From Modicisalibacter xianhensis (GTDB taxonomy: Bacteria > Pseudomonadota > Gammaproteobacteria > Pseudomonadales > Halomonadaceae): a stretch of 64,000 bases of DNA. Shown one piece after another: positions 735 through 8,876 of the stretch. The position numbers were made by a program, and so were the translations under genes. Location of the stretch: NCBI RefSeq assembly GCF_900113605.1, contig NZ_FOPY01000007.1:124001-188000 (forward strand). Reading direction: 5' to 3'. A model generated the notes under the pieces. That model saw only the letters and a list, made by a program, of their open reading frames with translations, was not told where the DNA came from and searched no databases. Numbering within the stretch: position 1 is the stretch's first letter; each line of letters opens with the position of its first letter.

Positions 735-2402
735 CTAGCGGAGCTTGGTAGCGCGCAATTCCTGCACTGGCACTGGTGGATGAAAGCTATCCGAGCGGGC
801 CGCCTGCCAGTAGTCGCGAAACACGGCATGCTCGGGTGTGCCGTGGAGCAGTTCGTCGGGTTCGAGAAACGGGAAAAGTGACGCGAACGAGCGAATCTCG
901 TTCTTCGAGACACGCCGCAGCACATGCTCCGGCCCCAGTTCGCTGGTGTCCTTCAGGCCTGCGGCGGCCAGCATCTCGGCCAGGGCCTTCAACGTATTGT
1001 CATGAAAATGAAAGACCCGCTGGGTCTTGTCGGGCACGTCGAGCTTCTTGCCTCGGCGCTTGTCCTGTGTCGCGACTCCGCTGGGGCAGCGGTCGGTGTG
1101 GCAGGCCATGGCCTGGATGCAGCCCAGCGCGAACATGTAACCGCGTGCAGCATTGCACCAGTCTGCGCCCAGAGCAATGGTGCGGGCAATATCGAAGGCG
1201 GAAACGATCTTGCCGGCGGCACCGACATGGATCTTGTCGCGCAGTCCGGCACCGACCAGCGTGTTGTGTACCAATAACAGGGCTTCGGTCAGCGGCATCC
1301 CGAGCCGGTTGATGAATTCCAGCGGTGCCGCGCCGGTACCGCCCTCGCCACCGTCGACGACGATGAAGTCGGGGCGCGTGCCTGTCTCCAGCATGGCCTT
1401 GACCAGGCCGAACCATTCCCACGGATGGCCGATGGTCAGCTTGATACCGACTGGCTTGCCGCCGGAAAGCTCGCGCAGGCGCGCGATGAAATCCATCATC
1501 TCCAGCGGCGTCGTGAAGGCCGAATGGGCATAGGGCGAAATGACATCCTGGCCGACCGGCACGCCGCGTGTCGCCGCGATCTCGGACGTTACCTTGGCCG
1601 CCGGCAGAATGCCGCCATGCCCGGGTTTGGCACCCTGGCTGAGCTTGATCTCGATCATCTTGACCTGCTCGAGTGTTGCCCCTTCGACAAAGCGCTCCTC
1701 ACTGAAGGTACCGTCCTCGTTGCGGCAACCGAAATAGCCCGAGCCGATCTCCCAGACCAGGTCGCCTCCCTGGCGGTGGTAGGGCGAGATCGCTCCTTCG
1801 CCAGTGTCATGGTAGAAGCTGCCCAGCCTGGCGCCGGCGTTCAGGGCGATAATGGCGTTGGAGGACAGCGAGCCGAAGCTCATCGCCGAGATATTGAAAA
1901 TACTCGCCGAGTAGGGCTTGGCGCACCCCTGCCCGATGGTAATGCGAAAGTCGTGGGACTCGATCCGGGTCGGTTTCAGCGACGGGCTGATCCATTCGTA
2001 ACCCTCGGCGTACATGTCCTGTACCGAACCGAATGCCTTCTTGTCCAACACGTTCTTGGCACGCTGGTAAACCAGCGAACGCTGCTCCCGTGAGTAGGGT
2101 GTCTGTTCGGTATCCGACTGGATGAAATACTGGCGGATTTCGGGACCGATCGACTCCAGAAAATAACGGAAATGCGCCAGGATTGGATAGTTGCGGCTGA
2201 CCGTGTGCCGGCGTTGGTGTCGATCGTAGGTGCCAAGCGCCGCCAACACTCCGAACAGCAGTGCCGCCCAGCCCCAGGTTGCCTCGAAGAGCATGGCGAC
2301 CAGCGAGGCAGCCAGGCCGAGCAGGCTAAGCAGGTAGACGGCATAACGTAATGGCAGCCGGGAGTTGAGCGACAGTCCGAAGGGTTCCAGCGGTGATGGC
2401 AT
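735..2402 (-). CDS. FMN-binding glutamate synthase family protein, membrane-tethered
   Basis: The 555-residue protein matches the stand-alone GltB central/FMN domain family (GltS FMN-binding region, PF01645 type). Residues from about 90 form the TIM-barrel domain with glycine-rich flavin-binding segments. A cysteine cluster of the form CIQAMACHTDRCPSG resembles the 3Fe-4S motif of glutamate synthase. The first 65 residues contain two hydrophobic segments followed by a basic stretch, so the enzyme is probably anchored in the inner membrane. There is no amidotransferase domain, so glutamine-dependent glutamate synthesis is not implied and the physiological substrate is unknown. I chose the ATG at 2402 because AAGGAG lies just upstream; a GTG at 2483 would add 27 residues without such support. 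Confidence 0.85.
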   Translation of the reverse strand: MPSPLEPFGLSLNSRLPLRYAVYLLSLLGLAASLVAMLFEATWGWAALLFGVLAALGTYDRHQRRHTVSRNYPILAHFRYFLESIGPEIRQYFIQSDTEQTPYSREQRSLVYQRAKNVLDKKAFGSVQDMYAEGYEWISPSLKPTRIESHDFRITIGQGCAKPYSASIFNISAMSFGSLSSNAIIALNAGARLGSFYHDTGEGAISPYHRQGGDLVWEIGSGYFGCRNEDGTFSEERFVEGATLEQVKMIEIKLSQGAKPGHGGILPAAKVTSEIAATRGVPVGQDVISPYAHSAFTTPLEMMDFIARLRELSGGKPVGIKLTIGHPWEWFGLVKAMLETGTRPDFIVVDGGEGGTGAAPLEFINRLGMPLTEALLLVHNTLVGAGLRDKIHVGAAGKIVSAFDIARTIALGADWCNAARGYMFALGCIQAMACHTDRCPSGVATQDKRRGKKLDVPDKTQRVFHFHDNTLKALAEMLAAAGLKDTSELGPEHVLRRVSKNEIRSFASLFPFLEPDELLHGTPEHAVFRDYWQAARSDSFHPPVPVQELRATKLR

Positions 2403-2511
2403 TGATAGCTGCGCTCCTTGCAATGATGTAGTGGGTACTGTGACTGCTCCGCATTGTAGCGATAGACGCAAGGGGGCTTCCACGACGAGTCCCGGAGCGG
2501 TTTGGTCGAGG

Positions 2512-3255
2512 TCAACAGCGTCCGTTGCTGTCGGCCAGGCGTGTCAGGGCTTCCAGGTCGTGAATGTGAAACTCTCGGCCGCGTGAAGTAATCAGGCCTT
2601 GCTGTTGAAAGCGTCCTAGCAGGCGACTGACCGTTTCCACCGCCAGGCCCAGATAGCTGCCGATGTCGCCACGTGACATGGCCAGATTGAAGCAATAAGG
2701 GGAATAACCGCGGCGCCGGAAACGCAATGACATGGCTACGAAGAACGTCGCCAGACGCACATCCGAGGTCTTGCGCAGCAACAAGTGCATCAACAGGCGC
2801 TCGTTCTGCAGTTCCTTGCTCATGCACTGGTAGAGGTAGTTGTGCAATTCGGGGCTACTGCATGTGAGTGCTTCCAGCCGCTCGAAGGGCAACTCGAACA
2901 GTGTGGTGGTTTCCAGCGCAATGGCATTGCCGGGATAACGGTGATCGCCAATGGCGTCGAGGCCGACGATTTCGCCGGGCAGGAAAAAGCTGGTGACCAA
3001 CTCCTCCTGGTTTTCGGTCGTGGTGACCTGTTTCAAGCTGCCGGAATGGATCACGTACAGGCTATTGAACGGCATGCCCTGAACATAGAGGGCATCGCGC
3101 TTGCGCAGTGGAGCGGTACGCCTGGCAACCACGCCAAACCTGTCGAGCGTCTCCGAGGAGAGGGAGAACGGCAGGCAAAGCGAACTCAGCCGGCAGGTCT
3201 GGTTGTGCAGATCGTGCTGGCGGGCAAATCGCAACACGGGGCGCGGAGTCGTCAT
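2512..3255 (-). CDS. FNR-family transcription regulator lacking two Fe-S cysteines
   Basis: This 247-residue Crp/Fnr regulator has an N-terminal cyclic-nucleotide-binding-like domain, a long dimer helix and a C-terminal winged helix. The recognition region (SRGDIGSYLGL then VETVSRLLGRF) is nearly identical to E. coli FNR, so TTGAT-type half-sites are expected. Aligned without gaps to remembered E. coli FNR, Cys23 and Cys29 are kept (here Cys21, Cys27), but the Cys20 position is Asn18 and the Cys122 position is Phe120, so a normal four-cysteine 4Fe-4S cluster cannot form. Other cysteines exist but not at ligand positions. The start at 3255 has GGAGGTG just upstream; an ATG at 3270 lacks one. 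It is divergent from the gene at 3504, which carries an FNR-type box. Confidence 0.88.
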   Translation of the reverse strand: MTTPRPVLRFARQHDLHNQTCRLSSLCLPFSLSSETLDRFGVVARRTAPLRKRDALYVQGMPFNSLYVIHSGSLKQVTTTENQEELVTSFFLPGEIVGLDAIGDHRYPGNAIALETTTLFELPFERLEALTCSSPELHNYLYQCMSKELQNERLLMHLLLRKTSDVRLATFFVAMSLRFRRRGYSPYCFNLAMSRGDIGSYLGLAVETVSRLLGRFQQQGLITSRGREFHIHDLEALTRLADSNGRC

Positions 3256-3371
3256 GCTCACCTCCACCATAGTGCGGTTTGCCTAGAGTATGGACGAGTT
3301 TGGACAATGCGGATATCGCCTCGGCCTTTGGTATGGCGTGATTGGTCTTTGGGAGTGAAGCGGGTCCCAAA

Positions 3372-3413
3372 GTGACGATCGTCAAAGTTTTGTCATGACA
3401 TAGGCTGTACAGT
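3372..3413 (+). promoter_or_regulatory. FNR-type box and class II-like promoter
   Basis: Bases 3372-3385 read GTGACGATCGTCAA, close to the FNR/ANR/DNR palindrome TTGAY-N4-RTCAA, with a perfect inner palindrome TGACGATCGTCA. A plausible -10 (TACAGT, 3408-3413) would place the transcription start near 3420. The box centre would then sit at about -41.5, the standard spacing of FNR class II activated promoters. No good -35 hexamer is present, which fits activator dependence. The box lies between the FNR-like gene and the ferritin-like gene. Confidence 0.55.
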
Positions 3414-3503
3414 GCGCGCCATCGCGCCTTAGGACCGACAATCGGAAGACAAGGCGTCGTGCCGCCGGATAGTCCGGGCAGGTGTGCCATCACGGAGACC
3501 CCA

Positions 3504-4001
3504 ATGCAGCGCATCCAGAACATGACGACGACGACCAGCCTTCTTCCCGAAGAGTTGCTTGTCGCAGCCTATGCTCATGAACGCCGGGAAAAGCAGCGTT
3601 ATAGGATGCTCGCGTTGCGCTTCCAGCCGTTCGATGCGGTCACCCATCGCTTGTTGCAGATGCTTGCCGAGGAGTGCGAGCAGCGTCTCGATGCCCTGGC
3701 GCGTGCCGCCGAGCGCCTGGATCTCTGTGGCTCTCCGTGCAGTCTGGCGACAGAGGAGCCGCTTGCGAAGGCGCGCCACTTCTTCATCGTCGACGAGCGT
3801 ATGGCGGCACAGTTGCTGACCCGTACCGTAATCGACGAGCATCGTTCGCTGGCGTTCTACCGCCAGTTGGCGGACGCCAATGCCTTGCCGCAGTTGTACA
3901 AGCTGCTGGCCGGCTTCATACATCAGAAACAGGCCCAGATTCGCATTCTCGAGGAGGCGCAGAGTCAGTCGCCAAATCTCGCCTATCGCCACATCGCCTG
4001 A
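3504..4001 (+). CDS. Small ferritin-like/rubrerythrin-like helical protein, function unknown
   Basis: The 165-residue protein is all helical, with a glutamate-rich first helix (His25, Glu26, Glu29), a second helix with AEECEQR, and later helices with IDEHRSLAFYRQL and FIHQKQAQIRIL. The layout recalls the ferritin-like/rubrerythrin fold, but an arginine sits where a metal-binding histidine is usual, so di-iron binding is uncertain. There is no signal peptide or membrane segment. GGAG lies six bases before the ATG at 3504; a GTG at 3459 would add 15 unlikely residues. The promoter carries an FNR-type box, suggesting induction when oxygen is low or by NO. I do not recognise a specific orthologue. 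Confidence 0.6.
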   Translation: MQRIQNMTTTTSLLPEELLVAAYAHERREKQRYRMLALRFQPFDAVTHRLLQMLAEECEQRLDALARAAERLDLCGSPCSLATEEPLAKARHFFIVDERMAAQLLTRTVIDEHRSLAFYRQLADANALPQLYKLLAGFIHQKQAQIRILEEAQSQSPNLAYRHIA

Positions 4002-4210: not shown

Positions 4211-6781
4211 ATGGCCAAGCTAGAGGAGTACCGACGCAAGCGCGATTTTCGGCGCACGACCGAACCGGCCGGCGGCGTCCCGCATGGTCAAGCGGGAGAA
4301 AGCGGGCACCTGTTTGTCGTGCACAAGCATGCTGCCAGTCATGACCATTTCGATCTGCGACTCGAACAGGATGGGGTGCTGAGGAGTTGGGCGCTGCCCA
4401 AGGGGCCGAGCCTTGAGGCGGGTGAGAAGCGTCTGGCCGTCGAAGTGGAAGATCACCCACTGGAATATGCCGACTTCGAAGGGGTGATTCCCGAGGCCTC
4501 CTATGGCGGCGGCACCTCGATGCTGTGGGATCGGGGGCGCTGGGCAACGACGGGCAAGCCGGGCAAGGATCGTATCGATTTCGAACTCGTGGGCGAAAAG
4601 CTGCACGGGGCCTGGACGCTGACTCGCATGACGGGGCGGCGCGAGAAAAGCGATCGCAACTGGTTGTTGATCAAGCGCCGCGATGGTCACGGTGGCGAAA
4701 AGGCGTCGATGACGCCGCCGTCCGACGGTGACCGCAGTGTCGCCACCGGGCGAACCATGCGCGAGATTGCCGAAGATCGCGACACGCTGTGGACCCGGGA
4801 AGGCGCCGTCAGCGAAGCGCCGCCGTTACCCGATCCCAGTGACCTCCCGGGTGCCCGACGGCAAGCCATGTCTCGCGAAGCCTCCCCCCAGCTTGCCACG
4901 CTGGTGCGTCAGGCCCCGGAAGGTGAGGACTGGATTCACGAGATCAAGTTTGACGGTTACCGGGTGCTGGCGCGCCTGGAAAAGGGTGAGGTGCGCCTGA
5001 TCACGCGCAATAACAAGGACTGGACTCACCGCTTTCCCGAACTGGCCCGGGTCATCGCTCAGTTGCCCGTGGACAGTGCGCTATTCGATGGCGAGGTGGT
5101 CTCGCTGGGCCAGGATGGCATCAGCAGTTTCCGTCGGTTGCAGGAGGCATTGAGCACGGGACGCACCGCGGGCCTGGTCTACCAAGCCTTCGATCTGCTC
5201 TACCTGAATAACCATGACCTGCGCGAGGCCGTCCTCGTCGATCGCAAGCGGCTGCTGTCCCAGCTATTGGCGTCGCTCGGCCTGAAAGGGCACAACAGCG
5301 TACGTTATGCCGATCATATTGAATCTCAGGGTACAGCGTTCTTCGACCAGGCCTGTCGCATGGGGCTCGAGGGCATCATCAGCAAGCGCGCCGAGAGTCG
5401 TTACCAGAGCACTCGCAGCAAGGATTGGATGAAGACCAAGTGCGCCAACCACGAGGAATTCGTGGTGGGTGGCTATACCGACCCCAGTGGTTCGCGCAGC
5501 GGCTTCGGGGGGCTGCTGATGGGCGCCTTCGATGACGATGGGCGGTTGGCGTATGCCGGGCGGGTCGGCACCGGCTTCAATGCCCGCCTGCTCGATACGC
5601 TCAGCCAGCGCCTTGAGGCCCAGGAAGCAGCGACATCCCCCTTCAATGGGCCGGTTCCCGATGTGCGCCGCGTGCATTGGGTTCGACCGGAAATGGTGAT
5701 CGAGGTGGAATTCACCGAGCGTACGCGGGATGGTCTGTTGCGTCATCCCGCCTTTCGGGGGCTGCGCGAGGACCGTAATCCGGAGGAAATCCGCGTGAGT
5801 CCTGACAAGACACGATCGACGCCCCCGTCAGAGGATGTTGAGCCATCCGCACCCAAGGCAAGCCCGGCCAGGGCGCGTGGCGATGAAAGCCGGTTGCTTG
5901 GCGTACGCCTGACGCACCCGGACCGTATCCTCTTTCCCGAACAAGGGCTGACCAAGCGCGACCTGGCGCAGTTCTACGAAGCGATCCAGGACTGGATTCT
6001 GCCTCGCCTTGCCCGGCGACCGCTGTCGCTGGTGCGATGCCCGCAAGGGCGCACCAGTGAATGTTTCTTCCAGAAGCATCCGCGGGTCGCCATTCCTGCC
6101 AGCGTGCCGCGCATCGACATCGCAGAGGCGTCAGGAACCTCGGAATACCTGTATATAGAGAGCGCCAGCGATCTGGTGGCATTGGTCCAGGCCGGGGCAT
6201 TGGAGATCCATCCATGGGGTAGCCGTATCGAGGACGTCGAGCGCCCCGACAACCTGGTGTTCGATCTCGACCCGGCACCGGGCGTGGCCTGGCAGGAAAT
6301 CCTGCGTGTCGCTGGTACCCTGCGCGAGCGCCTGGCGTCGCTCGGCCTGGGGGCGTTCGTGCGTACTACCGGCGGCAAGGGGCTGCATGTCGTCGTGCCG
6401 ATCGTGCCAAGCGCGACCTGGGACGATGCCAAGGCTTTTACCAAGGCGGTTGCCCAGCAGCATGCCCAGGCCGACCCAAGGCGCCTGACGGTCAACATGG
6501 CCAAGAGCAAGCGCGAGGGGCGAATTTTCATCGATTACCTGCGCAACGGCCGCGGTGCCACGGCGGTCGCCTCCTATTCCGTGCGGGCGAGGGAAGATGC
6601 GCCGGTCTGCGTTCCCGTGCGCTGGGATGAACTCAATGCAGCACTGCGTTCCGACCGCTATACGACCGAGAACCTGAAGCGACGCCTTGCGGCACTGCGC
6701 GGGGATCCTTGGGCCGGCTACGAGGATGCCGCGCGCCCGCTCGAGACGGAACTGCTGCGTGCCGTGGGGCTTGTTCGATGA
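4211..6781 (+). CDS. ligD: Multifunctional ATP-dependent DNA ligase D (NHEJ)
   Basis: The 856-residue LigD seals double-strand breaks in bacterial non-homologous end joining. Domain order is phosphoesterase (about 30-180), ligase (about 215-540) and primase-like polymerase (about 565-850), the Pseudomonas-type arrangement. The phosphoesterase motif has His40, His46 and Asp48 in KHAASHDHFDLR. The ligase nucleotidyl lysine is Lys246 in EIKFDGYR. The polymerase metal aspartates are Asp685 and Asp687 (DLDPAPG) and Asp775 (FIDYLRN). All three activities therefore appear intact. AAGGACGAGG precedes the ATG. It is the first gene of a compact operon with a zinc protein and two ku genes. Confidence 0.97.
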   Translation: MAKLEEYRRKRDFRRTTEPAGGVPHGQAGESGHLFVVHKHAASHDHFDLRLEQDGVLRSWALPKGPSLEAGEKRLAVEVEDHPLEYADFEGVIPEASYGGGTSMLWDRGRWATTGKPGKDRIDFELVGEKLHGAWTLTRMTGRREKSDRNWLLIKRRDGHGGEKASMTPPSDGDRSVATGRTMREIAEDRDTLWTREGAVSEAPPLPDPSDLPGARRQAMSREASPQLATLVRQAPEGEDWIHEIKFDGYRVLARLEKGEVRLITRNNKDWTHRFPELARVIAQLPVDSALFDGEVVSLGQDGISSFRRLQEALSTGRTAGLVYQAFDLLYLNNHDLREAVLVDRKRLLSQLLASLGLKGHNSVRYADHIESQGTAFFDQACRMGLEGIISKRAESRYQSTRSKDWMKTKCANHEEFVVGGYTDPSGSRSGFGGLLMGAFDDDGRLAYAGRVGTGFNARLLDTLSQRLEAQEAATSPFNGPVPDVRRVHWVRPEMVIEVEFTERTRDGLLRHPAFRGLREDRNPEEIRVSPDKTRSTPPSEDVEPSAPKASPARARGDESRLLGVRLTHPDRILFPEQGLTKRDLAQFYEAIQDWILPRLARRPLSLVRCPQGRTSECFFQKHPRVAIPASVPRIDIAEASGTSEYLYIESASDLVALVQAGALEIHPWGSRIEDVERPDNLVFDLDPAPGVAWQEILRVAGTLRERLASLGLGAFVRTTGGKGLHVVVPIVPSATWDDAKAFTKAVAQQHAQADPRRLTVNMAKSKREGRIFIDYLRNGRGATAVASYSVRAREDAPVCVPVRWDELNAALRSDRYTTENLKRRLAALRGDPWAGYEDAARPLETELLRAVGLVR

Positions 6782-6797
6782 ACTCAAGGAGAATGCC

Positions 6798-7019
6798 GTG
6801 AGCCACGACGATGCCGAGCCACCCTGGTGGCTGGAGTCCGGCGCCGAGACGTGCCAGTCATGCCATCGTACGTTTCATTATGAGGCGGGCTATCACTGTT
6901 TCCACTGCGACAGTCCTGTGTGCCCGATCTGTGTGGTAGAGCTGCATGAGACGCGTCAGGTGATCTGCCCGGAATGCCATGCCCAGGATGGCGGGACGAA
7001 TGGTGAAGATGCCGGCTAG
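6798..7019 (+). CDS. Small four-CxxC zinc-binding protein in the NHEJ operon
   Basis: This 73-residue protein contains four CxxC pairs (CQSC, CFHC, CPIC, CPEC), enough for two zinc ions in a double zinc-ribbon or RING/FYVE-like fold. It has no signal peptide or membrane segment. It starts at a GTG with AAGGAG upstream, 17 bases after the ligD stop, and ends 14 bases before ku, so co-transcription is near certain. I do not recognise a named family. Its place between ligD and ku suggests a role with DNA ends or as a protein adaptor, which is inference. An ATG further upstream in the same frame lies inside ligD and is less likely. Confidence 0.8.
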   Translation: MSHDDAEPPWWLESGAETCQSCHRTFHYEAGYHCFHCDSPVCPICVVELHETRQVICPECHAQDGGTNGEDAG

Positions 7020-7033
7020 ACGAGGAGAGGACA

Positions 7034-7810
7034 ATGGCTGCCAGAGCGATGTGGAAAGGAGTGGTGCGCTTCGGCGAGGTACGCGTGCCGGTCAAGCTCT
7101 ATTCCGCTGTGCAGGATCGCAGCGTGCACTTTCGCCTGCTGCACGGCAAGGACCGTTCTCCCGTCAAGCAGGCGATGGTCAATCCACAGACCGATGAGGC
7201 CGTACCGTTCAGCGAAGCCCGGCGTGCCTACCGCACCGACGAAGGACGCCTGGTGTGCCTGGAGCACGCTGAACTCGAGGAGCTCGAGCCCGAACAGACC
7301 CGTGATATCGAGGTGATCAGTTTCCTGCCGCCCGAGGAAATCGATCATCGCTGGTACAGCCGACCGTACTATCTGGGGCCGGATGGCAACGAAGATGCAT
7401 ATTTTGCGCTGATCGAGGCGTTGCAGCGTAACGGGCGCGAGGGCTTGGCGCGCTGGGTCATGCGCAAGAAGGCTTACATCGGTGCCCTGCGTCTGCATCA
7501 GGGTTATCCCATGCTCATCTCTCTGCGCCACGACGAGGAAGTGGTATCGCTCGATACCCTGAATCCGCCCGGCGGGACGCGCCTCGACGCCAAGGAGCTG
7601 GACATGGCTCAGCAACTCATTGGCATGCTCGAGGCGCCCTTCGAACCCGAGCAGTATCATGATGAATACCGTGAGCGCGTCATGGCGCTGATCGAGGCCA
7701 AGCAGCGCGGCGAAAGTGTCAAGGTAACCCCGATTCGTCGTCCCGAGCCCTCCGATGACGTGACGACGGCCTTGGAGGCCAGCCTGAAGGGAGGACGCAA
7801 GCGTGCCTAG
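7034..7810 (+). CDS. ku: Non-homologous end joining protein Ku (first copy)
   Basis: The 258-residue protein is a canonical bacterial Ku, opening with the typical AMWKGVVRFGEVRVPVKLYSA segment and carrying the core Ku beta-barrel that rings DNA ends as a dimer and recruits LigD. The C-terminus is short and basic (SLKGGRKRA), a minimal tail. Its last eight bases overlap the start of the second ku, which implies translational coupling. It follows the small zinc protein by 14 bases. Divergence from the second Ku is substantial, so this is not a recent tandem duplication. Confidence 0.95.
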   Translation: MAARAMWKGVVRFGEVRVPVKLYSAVQDRSVHFRLLHGKDRSPVKQAMVNPQTDEAVPFSEARRAYRTDEGRLVCLEHAELEELEPEQTRDIEVISFLPPEEIDHRWYSRPYYLGPDGNEDAYFALIEALQRNGREGLARWVMRKKAYIGALRLHQGYPMLISLRHDEEVVSLDTLNPPGGTRLDAKELDMAQQLIGMLEAPFEPEQYHDEYRERVMALIEAKQRGESVKVTPIRRPEPSDDVTTALEASLKGGRKRA

Positions 7811-8876
7811 AAAGCAGCGGGAAAGCGAGGAGCAGCAGAAGGCTCGTGTCAGCGGGCCGCGCCCGTTCTGGTCGGGCACCATCACGTTCGGCCTGGTCAG
7901 TCTGCCCGTGGGATTGTATCCAGCCAACCGTTCCCGGCCGGTGTCGCTACGCATGATCGACAGCGACGGCACCCCGCTGGCGCGTCGTTATTTCTGCGAG
8001 AAAGAGGGCCGACCGCTGCGCAGCGACGAGCTGGTACGGGGCTATGAAGTCGAGAAGGGCGATTACATCGTCATCGAGGATGAGGAGCTTGATGCCCTGG
8101 CGCCCGAGAAGTCCCAGGAAATCGATCTCAAGCGCTTTGTCGACCTGGACAACATCGACCCCATGTATTTCGAGCGTGCCTATTTCCTGACCCCCGACAA
8201 GGGCATTACCAAGGCCTACCGGCTGCTTGCCAAGAGCATGGAGGAATCGCGGCGGGCCGGCATTGCTACCTTCGTGATGCGTGGTAAGGAGTACTTGGTG
8301 GCGATACTGGCCGAGAAGGGGATTCTACGGGCCGAGACGATGCGTTTTCACGAGGAGGTCCGCAAGCCTGAGAGCGTCGGACTGCCCGAGCTGCAGCGCG
8401 CGGACAGCCAGCAAGTCGAGGATATCGAGAAAGCCATTGCCTCGCTGGCGACCGACAAACTGGAACGAAGTGCGCTGGAGGATTGGCACAGTCGTAAGAT
8501 CATGGATCGGGTCAACGAAAAGCTCGACAAGGGCGAAGGAGTCATCGACATCGACGCCGAGGAGGAAGCGGAAGCCGAGCAGGGCGGTGAAGTGATCGAC
8601 CTGATGCAAGTTCTCAAGCAGAGCCTGGAGCAGGGGCAGCCGCCCACTGAAACGCCAGCGTCGCGCCATCGCAAATCGGCCGGTGACAAGTCGCGCAAGG
8701 CCGCGCCCAGCGCAGGAAAAAAGCGTGGCAGTCACGGCAAGAGCAAGCAGGGTCATGATGACCTGGCTGGGTTGTCCCGTCATGAACTCTACGAGCGAGC
8801 TCAGGCACTCGACATCCCGGGGCGCAGTAACATGAGCAAGGCGCAGCTTATCCGGGCCATCGAACAGGCCGCCTGA
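7803..8876 (+). CDS. ku: Non-homologous end joining protein Ku (second copy, C-terminal extension)
   Basis: The 357-residue Ku begins with a charged linker, then the Ku core from about residue 18 (RPFWSGTITFGLVSLPVGLYP). After about residue 270 a long Lys/Arg-rich linker leads to a final module of some 37 residues (LSRHELYERAQALDIPGRS, then MSKAQLIRAI) that looks like a SAP or Rho-N-type nucleic-acid-binding motif. The GTG start overlaps the preceding ku by eight bases and has GGGAGG upstream. The basic tail is expected to help DNA binding or sliding. With the first Ku it could form a heterodimer or separate homodimers; sequence cannot decide. Confidence 0.95.
   Translation: MPRKQRESEEQQKARVSGPRPFWSGTITFGLVSLPVGLYPANRSRPVSLRMIDSDGTPLARRYFCEKEGRPLRSDELVRGYEVEKGDYIVIEDEELDALAPEKSQEIDLKRFVDLDNIDPMYFERAYFLTPDKGITKAYRLLAKSMEESRRAGIATFVMRGKEYLVAILAEKGILRAETMRFHEEVRKPESVGLPELQRADSQQVEDIEKAIASLATDKLERSALEDWHSRKIMDRVNEKLDKGEGVIDIDAEEEAEAEQGGEVIDLMQVLKQSLEQGQPPTETPASRHRKSAGDKSRKAAPSAGKKRGSHGKSKQGHDDLAGLSRHELYERAQALDIPGRSNMSKAQLIRAIEQAA

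Follow-up and report, generated by a model that had tools for sequence, protein, structure and literature searches.

A two-cysteine FNR-type regulator divergent from a ferritin-like gene in Modicisalibacter xianhensis

The regulator gene and its neighborhood

The window analyzed here, a 64,000-nucleotide stretch of the Modicisalibacter xianhensis genome (G000; family Halomonadaceae), encodes an FNR-type regulator that diverges from a small ferritin-like gene. The same genus grouping includes genomes G008 and G003, in which the corresponding places are loci L049 and L050. The features considered below are as follows.

735..2483, minus strand: FMN glutamate-synthase-like protein (PF01645), following the regulator on its own strand after a gap of 28 nt
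2512..3255 including the stop codon, minus strand: FNR-type Crp/Fnr regulator of 247 aa (open reading frame; Pfam, NCBIfam, PDB and FNR alignments)
3372..3385, no strand assigned: FNR-type box GTGACGATCGTCAA, reading TTGACGATCGTCAC on the other strand, with 1 mismatch to TTGAYNNNNRTCAA; lies between the regulator and the divergent ferritin-like gene
3408..3413, plus strand: -10-like hexamer TACAGT of the ferritin-like gene, starting 29 nt from the box center
3522..4001, plus strand: ferritin-like four-helix protein of 159 aa plus stop (structure model and Foldseek), the divergent neighbor and likely target

The regulator frame also contains an in-frame ATG at position 3270 of the window; a GGAGG stretch lies just 5' of the ATG at 3255 and is kept in the three orthologues, making 3255 the likely start. 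The protein scores above the Pfam cut-offs for PF00027, PF00325 and PF13545, which places it in the Crp/Fnr superfamily. Its top NCBIfam match is Fnr (NF008365), at 225.9 bits against a curated cut-off of 228 (on the same scale its relative L016 reaches 233 bits and the four-cysteine protein L002 reaches 282.1), and its sequence is far nearer to the Fnr family than to FixK. The closest solved structures by sequence are the FNR-type regulators 9qll and 5cvr, which align without gaps over residues 16 to 243 and which, with their relatives, we take to be from A. fischeri. The recognition helix reads LGLAVETVSRLLGRF in the regulator and LGLTVETISRLLGRF in Escherichia coli FNR. E209, S212 and R213, the base contacts of E. 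coli FNR, are all retained, which bears out the initial annotation of the gene as an FNR paralogue whose DNA-reading helix is unchanged in its key residues.

The divergent neighbor was modeled as four helices with a mean pLDDT of 77, and Foldseek returned a weak likeness to the ferritin superfamily (top two matches at E 0.022 to 0.023 and TM 0.65 to 0.71; none at 0.001). It has no NCBIfam match and no sequence match in the PDB, and the longer reading frame at 3459-4001 has no Pfam match. Three glutamates are conserved (E20 in 35/35 sequences, E51 in 33/35 and E145 in 33/35). A diiron enzyme was considered and set aside, though the protein may bind iron, as the likeness is one of fold only and a full diiron motif was not seen in the 35 sequences. 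Among 30 fetched ferritin-like loci, a Crp/Fnr-type match lies within about 1.5 kb in 14 and in the other 16 there is none.

The regulator and the glutamate-synthase-like gene are probably co-transcribed, judging from their arrangement. A homologue of the latter immediately follows the regulator in L049, L050 and L016/L058. In L059 and L060 it lies at a greater distance downstream, and the stretches L051 and L052 lack it. We note that positions 203-655 of the window encode a hemerythrin-domain protein (PF01814), whose homologues in L049 and L050 occupy the same place, and that positions 4211-8876 carry LigD followed by adjacent Ku-like genes (7034-7810 and 7803-8876, read as Ku from sequence), forming a two-Ku NHEJ cluster.

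Cluster ligands, distribution and selection

FNR is the textbook oxygen sensor. Aligned to E. coli FNR from strain MG1655 (NC_000913; L075), the ligands C20, C23, C29 and C122 correspond to N18, C21, C27 and F120 of the regulator, a pattern abbreviated here as NCCF, and the protein thus departs from the four-ligand (CCCC) pattern of FNR and ANR. The replacement of Cys20 and Cys122 with retention of Cys23 and Cys29 had been read initially, and the alignment to the MG1655 sequence confirms it. No other cysteine occupies either of the two lost ligand columns in the three NCCF proteins; a cysteine there would have overturned the initial reading. Further cysteines are present at positions 132, 144, 188 and 247. 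In a 65-row alignment C132, C144 and C247 are restricted to the three NCCF proteins (0/62 other rows), while C188, which aligns with E190 of E. coli FNR, where the 180-190 loop ends, occurs in 8 rows, namely the three NCCF proteins, L016-L018, L005 and L073. At the column of E. coli FNR D154 the regulator has a glutamate and so retains the charge to which the monomeric state of apo-FNR is attributed, and the dimer helix of the three NCCF proteins holds no specific change that clearly compensates for it. The structure model of the regulator, built with 3 sequences, is unusable (mean pLDDT 36.4), too poor for the proximity of C21, C27, C132, C144 and C188 to be judged.

The NCCF pattern is common to Halomonas sp. 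McH1-25 (L049, 94% identical) and Modicisalibacter luteus DSM 23508 (L050, 89%), and its presence in three genomes rules out an assembly or sequencing error or a local oddity. It was found at 3/41 loci, alongside 35 CCCC and 3 ligand-less ones (43 rows less L049 and L050, which are the same places as L014 and L015); the wider 65-row set contains the same 3 NCCF proteins, 54 CCCC and 8 without ligands. The nearest relatives of the trio, at 58 to 63% identity, have all four ligands. Within the genus, a threshold of E 1e-35 gave 29 matches in 14 genomes: 3 NCCF, 20 CCCC and 6 ligand-less proteins. A match at 1e-70 is present in 212 of 275 genomes of the family, where the ligand states of the 30 fetched loci are 3 NCCF and 27 CCCC. 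In an even draw of 390 genomes from the larger set for the order, 13 have a match at 1e-75, all 13 from the same family; that search supplied nine additional loci, all CCCC. No paper on the NCCF regulator or on two-ligand FNRs of Halomonadaceae appeared among the open-access papers listed; one FNR-clustering homologue without the four cysteines is mentioned, and left there, in one account (PMC8510549).

At the 1e-35 threshold the M. xianhensis genome encodes six FNR-like genes: two CCCC genes (L002 beside a hemN-like gene and L003 beside a narG-like gene, names read from sequence), the NCCF regulator and three ligand-less paralogues. Twelve other Crp/Fnr matches are present in this genome besides the regulator. 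G003 and G008 each encode one additional CCCC homologue (L071 and L023, respectively), so that the expected canonical FNR/ANR alongside the two-cysteine protein, in the form of at least one four-cysteine homologue, was found in all three genomes.

We placed 45 proteins in a phylogenetic tree, in which the NCCF trio forms one clade with 100/100 support, nested in CCCC sequences, which points to a single lineage-specific ligand loss in this sample. The ligand states on this tree require three changes, in the NCCF clade, in the tandem copies L051b/L052b, and in a clade of L004-L006 and relatives, although the placement of this last, long-branched zero-cysteine clade is uncertain. Judged from these sequences, the sampled FNR-like proteins of the family have lost ligands on three or more occasions, and every such lineage has ferritin-linked members. 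The zero-cysteine clade is only partly ferritin-linked (L004, with a phasin-like gene between, L090, L097 and L099); L005 and L006 are not, because no more than two ferritin-like matches exist in the M. xianhensis genome. Ferritin linkage is also seen in several CCCC proteins (L016-L018, L025, L026, L087, L096 and L101), so linkage alone does not predict ligand loss. In the tandem arrangement, an FNR copy beside the ferritin-like gene (L051:6758-7453, L052:6357-7040) lies near a four-cysteine copy, is followed by a phasin-like gene, and has a shortened N-terminus without the N-terminal ligands and a serine in place of the fourth ligand. In a mirror image of the NCCF regulator, the four-cysteine, ferritin-linked proteins L087, L096 and L101 have a recognition helix that reads E-T-V-G-R, with glycine for S212 of E. 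coli FNR.

Across the trio the whole gene has dN of 0.034 to 0.057 and dS of 0.70 to 0.96, a dN/dS of about 0.04 to 0.08, and the DNA-binding domain shows 0 to 1 changes in 79 residues. The sensor loop (residues 14 to 32) has changed at 3 to 6 of 19 positions, with dN of 0.10 to 0.16 against dS of 0.46 to 0.79; it evolves faster than the gene as a whole but not neutrally. For the canonical paralogue pair L002/L023 of the same two species, the loop has 0/19 changes and the DNA-binding domain 2/79, and dN is 0.017 versus 0.034 for the NCCF regulator. The four-cysteine, ferritin-linked pair L017/L018 also has 4/19 loop changes, indicating that a faster loop is not peculiar to ligand loss, and a loose loop may be general to the ferritin-linked paralogue group. 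All six variable loop columns fall outside residues 21-29, which are invariant in the trio (probability of random placement 0.008, calculated post hoc). These residues are well conserved in four-cysteine FNRs too, so their constancy in the trio may have a structural cause; ligand-less paralogues do not retain the cysteine loop.

Operator and promoter layout

The half-sites of the box in the window recur in L049 and L050, and an equivalent box with TTGAT/GTCAT half-sites is found in L058, L059 and L060. Each of these six intergenic regions, three beside two-cysteine and three beside four-cysteine regulators, contains a single box that differs from TTGAYNNNNRTCAA by at most 1 mismatch, and in 6/6 a TACAGT or TACATT on the side of the ferritin-like gene begins 29 nt from the box center, so that the box is centered at about -41.5 in a class II arrangement. 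Such a box arose in one region in 23 to 41 of 2,000 mononucleotide shuffles, and the joint score of box and -10 hexamer in these six loci was equaled in 0 to 2 of 300 shuffles. We extended the comparison to 36 ferritin-like upstream regions, choosing one site per region by the joint score (L083 duplicates L051). In 25 of them this site departs from the box by no more than 1 mismatch, in the other 11 by 2 or more, and the joint score exceeds 95% of shuffles in 12/36. FNR-type upstream sites were also found at some ferritin-like loci without an adjacent Crp/Fnr gene. Judging by these upstream sites, regulators of the FNR/ANR type appear to target the ferritin-like gene often in the family, though not at every locus. 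The ferritin-like genes of L089, L093, L094 and L095 lie beside another Crp-type regulator (helix motif SPVHINRTL), and their sites have 3 to 4 mismatches to the FNR-type box.

Drift has turned the TTGAT..GTCAT half-sites into TTGAC..GTCAC in the three two-cysteine species, and by our own count the drifted box fits a Crp consensus about as well as an Fnr one; another Crp/Fnr protein of the same genome may therefore use it. The intergenic region between the four-cysteine paralogue L003 and its narG-like neighbor contains TTGACTGAAGTCAA, which suggests that TTGAC/GTCAA half-sites suit this organism. The exact box TTGACNATNGTCAM has few sites across the three genomes. One, L121, lies within genes read as phage-like. 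A second site common to all three (L117, L118 and L119) falls within an inverted repeat CCTTGACC..GTCAAGG before a glycogen-synthase-like gene (as read in L117). At L117:1499-1516 this repeat reads CCTTGACCATCGTCAAGG, with a core common to G000, G003 and G008; it resembles a MerR-type operator, and we rejected the shared site as an FNR site on this basis.

Proposed regulation with two of four ligands

Taken together, these observations suggest that this FNR-type regulator probably acts on FNR-type sites but does not sense oxygen in the classical way. The initial annotation had suggested that it could be a redox-rewired FNR of this kind, holding a two-cysteine cluster, sensing thiol redox or being constitutively active; the paralogue, the intact DNA-binding domain under strong constraint and the conserved box support that proposal in part, with an altered oxygen response as its probable element. 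As an overall explanation, whose chances we judge evenly balanced, the protein would be a class II regulator that acts on FNR-type sites and is incapable of forming the canonical four-cysteine cluster. A duplicated FNR divergent from a ferritin-like gene shed two cluster ligands in a single event, before the three Modicisalibacter/Halomonas species split, and would have kept its function as a DNA-binding regulator. A dimer on the box at 3372-3385 would control the ferritin-like gene and perhaps also the operon that the regulator shares with the glutamate-synthase-like gene. The charge kept at the D154 column, the drift of the box and the joint scores that exceed 95% of shuffles in only 12/36 regions weigh against this explanation.

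In E. coli, C122A FNR holds almost no cluster and is almost inactive in vivo (PMC4214427), and a protein lacking two ligands should likewise lack the canonical cluster; without a four-cysteine [4Fe-4S] cluster the oxygen response would be uncoupled or replaced. Apo-ANR of Pseudomonas putida is described as dimeric despite keeping Asp-154 (PMC4505428), so a cluster-less FNR-type dimer is feasible and DNA binding by the NCCF regulator possible. We lean slightly toward a retained role for C21 and C27, in thiol/disulfide chemistry or atypical metal binding, over their being relics, because the loop is constrained here, unlike in the fully ligand-less paralogues. A more specific version, which we offer tentatively, is a half-way sensor in which C21 and C27, with the lineage-specific C132 and C144 and the older C188, would sense redox state or metal while the protein still drives a class II ferritin-like promoter.

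Ranking close behind a role for C21 and C27 is an oxygen-blind FNR, a constitutive dimer with neither cofactor nor thiol switch, comparable to FixK2- or DNR-type relatives, in which activity depends on how strongly its own gene is transcribed and the two cysteines are relics. We regard this as possible, if on balance doubtful: two ligands are gone from a protein with an intact DNA-binding domain, fully ligand-less FNR-like paralogues persist in several genomes (L004-L006, L072-L074 and L051b/L052b), and the C122A/D154A FNR of E. coli, with aerobic activity and merely a 1.5-fold rise without oxygen, provides a working precedent (PMC4214427), but residues 21-29 are invariant in the trio, the loop has dN below dS, and ligand-less paralogues have not kept it. 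If the cysteines instead hold an Fe-S cluster, C21 and C27 could be joined by C188 or by C132/C144 in a re-ligated FNR, a reading that overlaps the metal-binding branch of our main explanation. The exclusivity of C132, C144 and C247 to the trio and the sharing of C188 with just five other rows speak for such a swap, as does the contact between the 17-29 and 180-190 loops in FNR structures noted in a review (PMC12937710). It is nonetheless unlikely, since by our own estimate about one cysteine gain is expected on a stem of ∼0.3 changes per site, so that three gains are only mildly unusual, and C188 is also present in the ligand-less L005 and L073.

Less probable again is action through canonical FNR, in which the NCCF protein would form heterodimers with L002 and L003 or compete with them for boxes, damping their response. 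The same type of box, a related dimer helix and a four-cysteine homologue in each of the three genomes would permit it, but the divergent local arrangement suggests a dedicated target. That the gene is decaying and functionless we consider very improbable, despite the loss of two functional residues and a dN twice that of the canonical paralogue pair, given an intact frame in three species and a conserved operator; on the dN/dS of the trio we rejected a pseudogene.

The regulator resembles E. coli FNR and Pseudomonas ANR in clear homology, in its recognition-helix residues and in an FNR-type box at about -41.5, and differs from them in lacking two of the four essential ligands and in scoring below the Fnr cut-off. 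The FNR-like protein FLP of Lactobacillus casei reportedly works by a two-cysteine disulfide switch. FLP belongs to a Gram-positive branch, and its cysteine positions differ from those of the NCCF regulator. FixK2, the one of the two compared here, and DNR likewise belong to the Crp/Fnr group, carry related DNA-binding helices and lack a four-cysteine cluster. FixK2 has a redox-active Cys183 in its DNA-binding domain and no visible counterpart of the cluster loop (PMC12937710), whereas in the NCCF regulator that N-terminal loop and two of its cysteines remain. Matched two- and four-cysteine regulators stand at one conserved promoter layout, and comparing them there would show how the input of a Crp/Fnr protein changes while its output stays. 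The C122A and C122A/D154A variants of E. coli FNR are similar in having lost a ligand, but there one was removed by design in the laboratory, while here two were lost naturally from a gene under selection, making the NCCF regulator a natural ligand-removal experiment whose outcome has been maintained.
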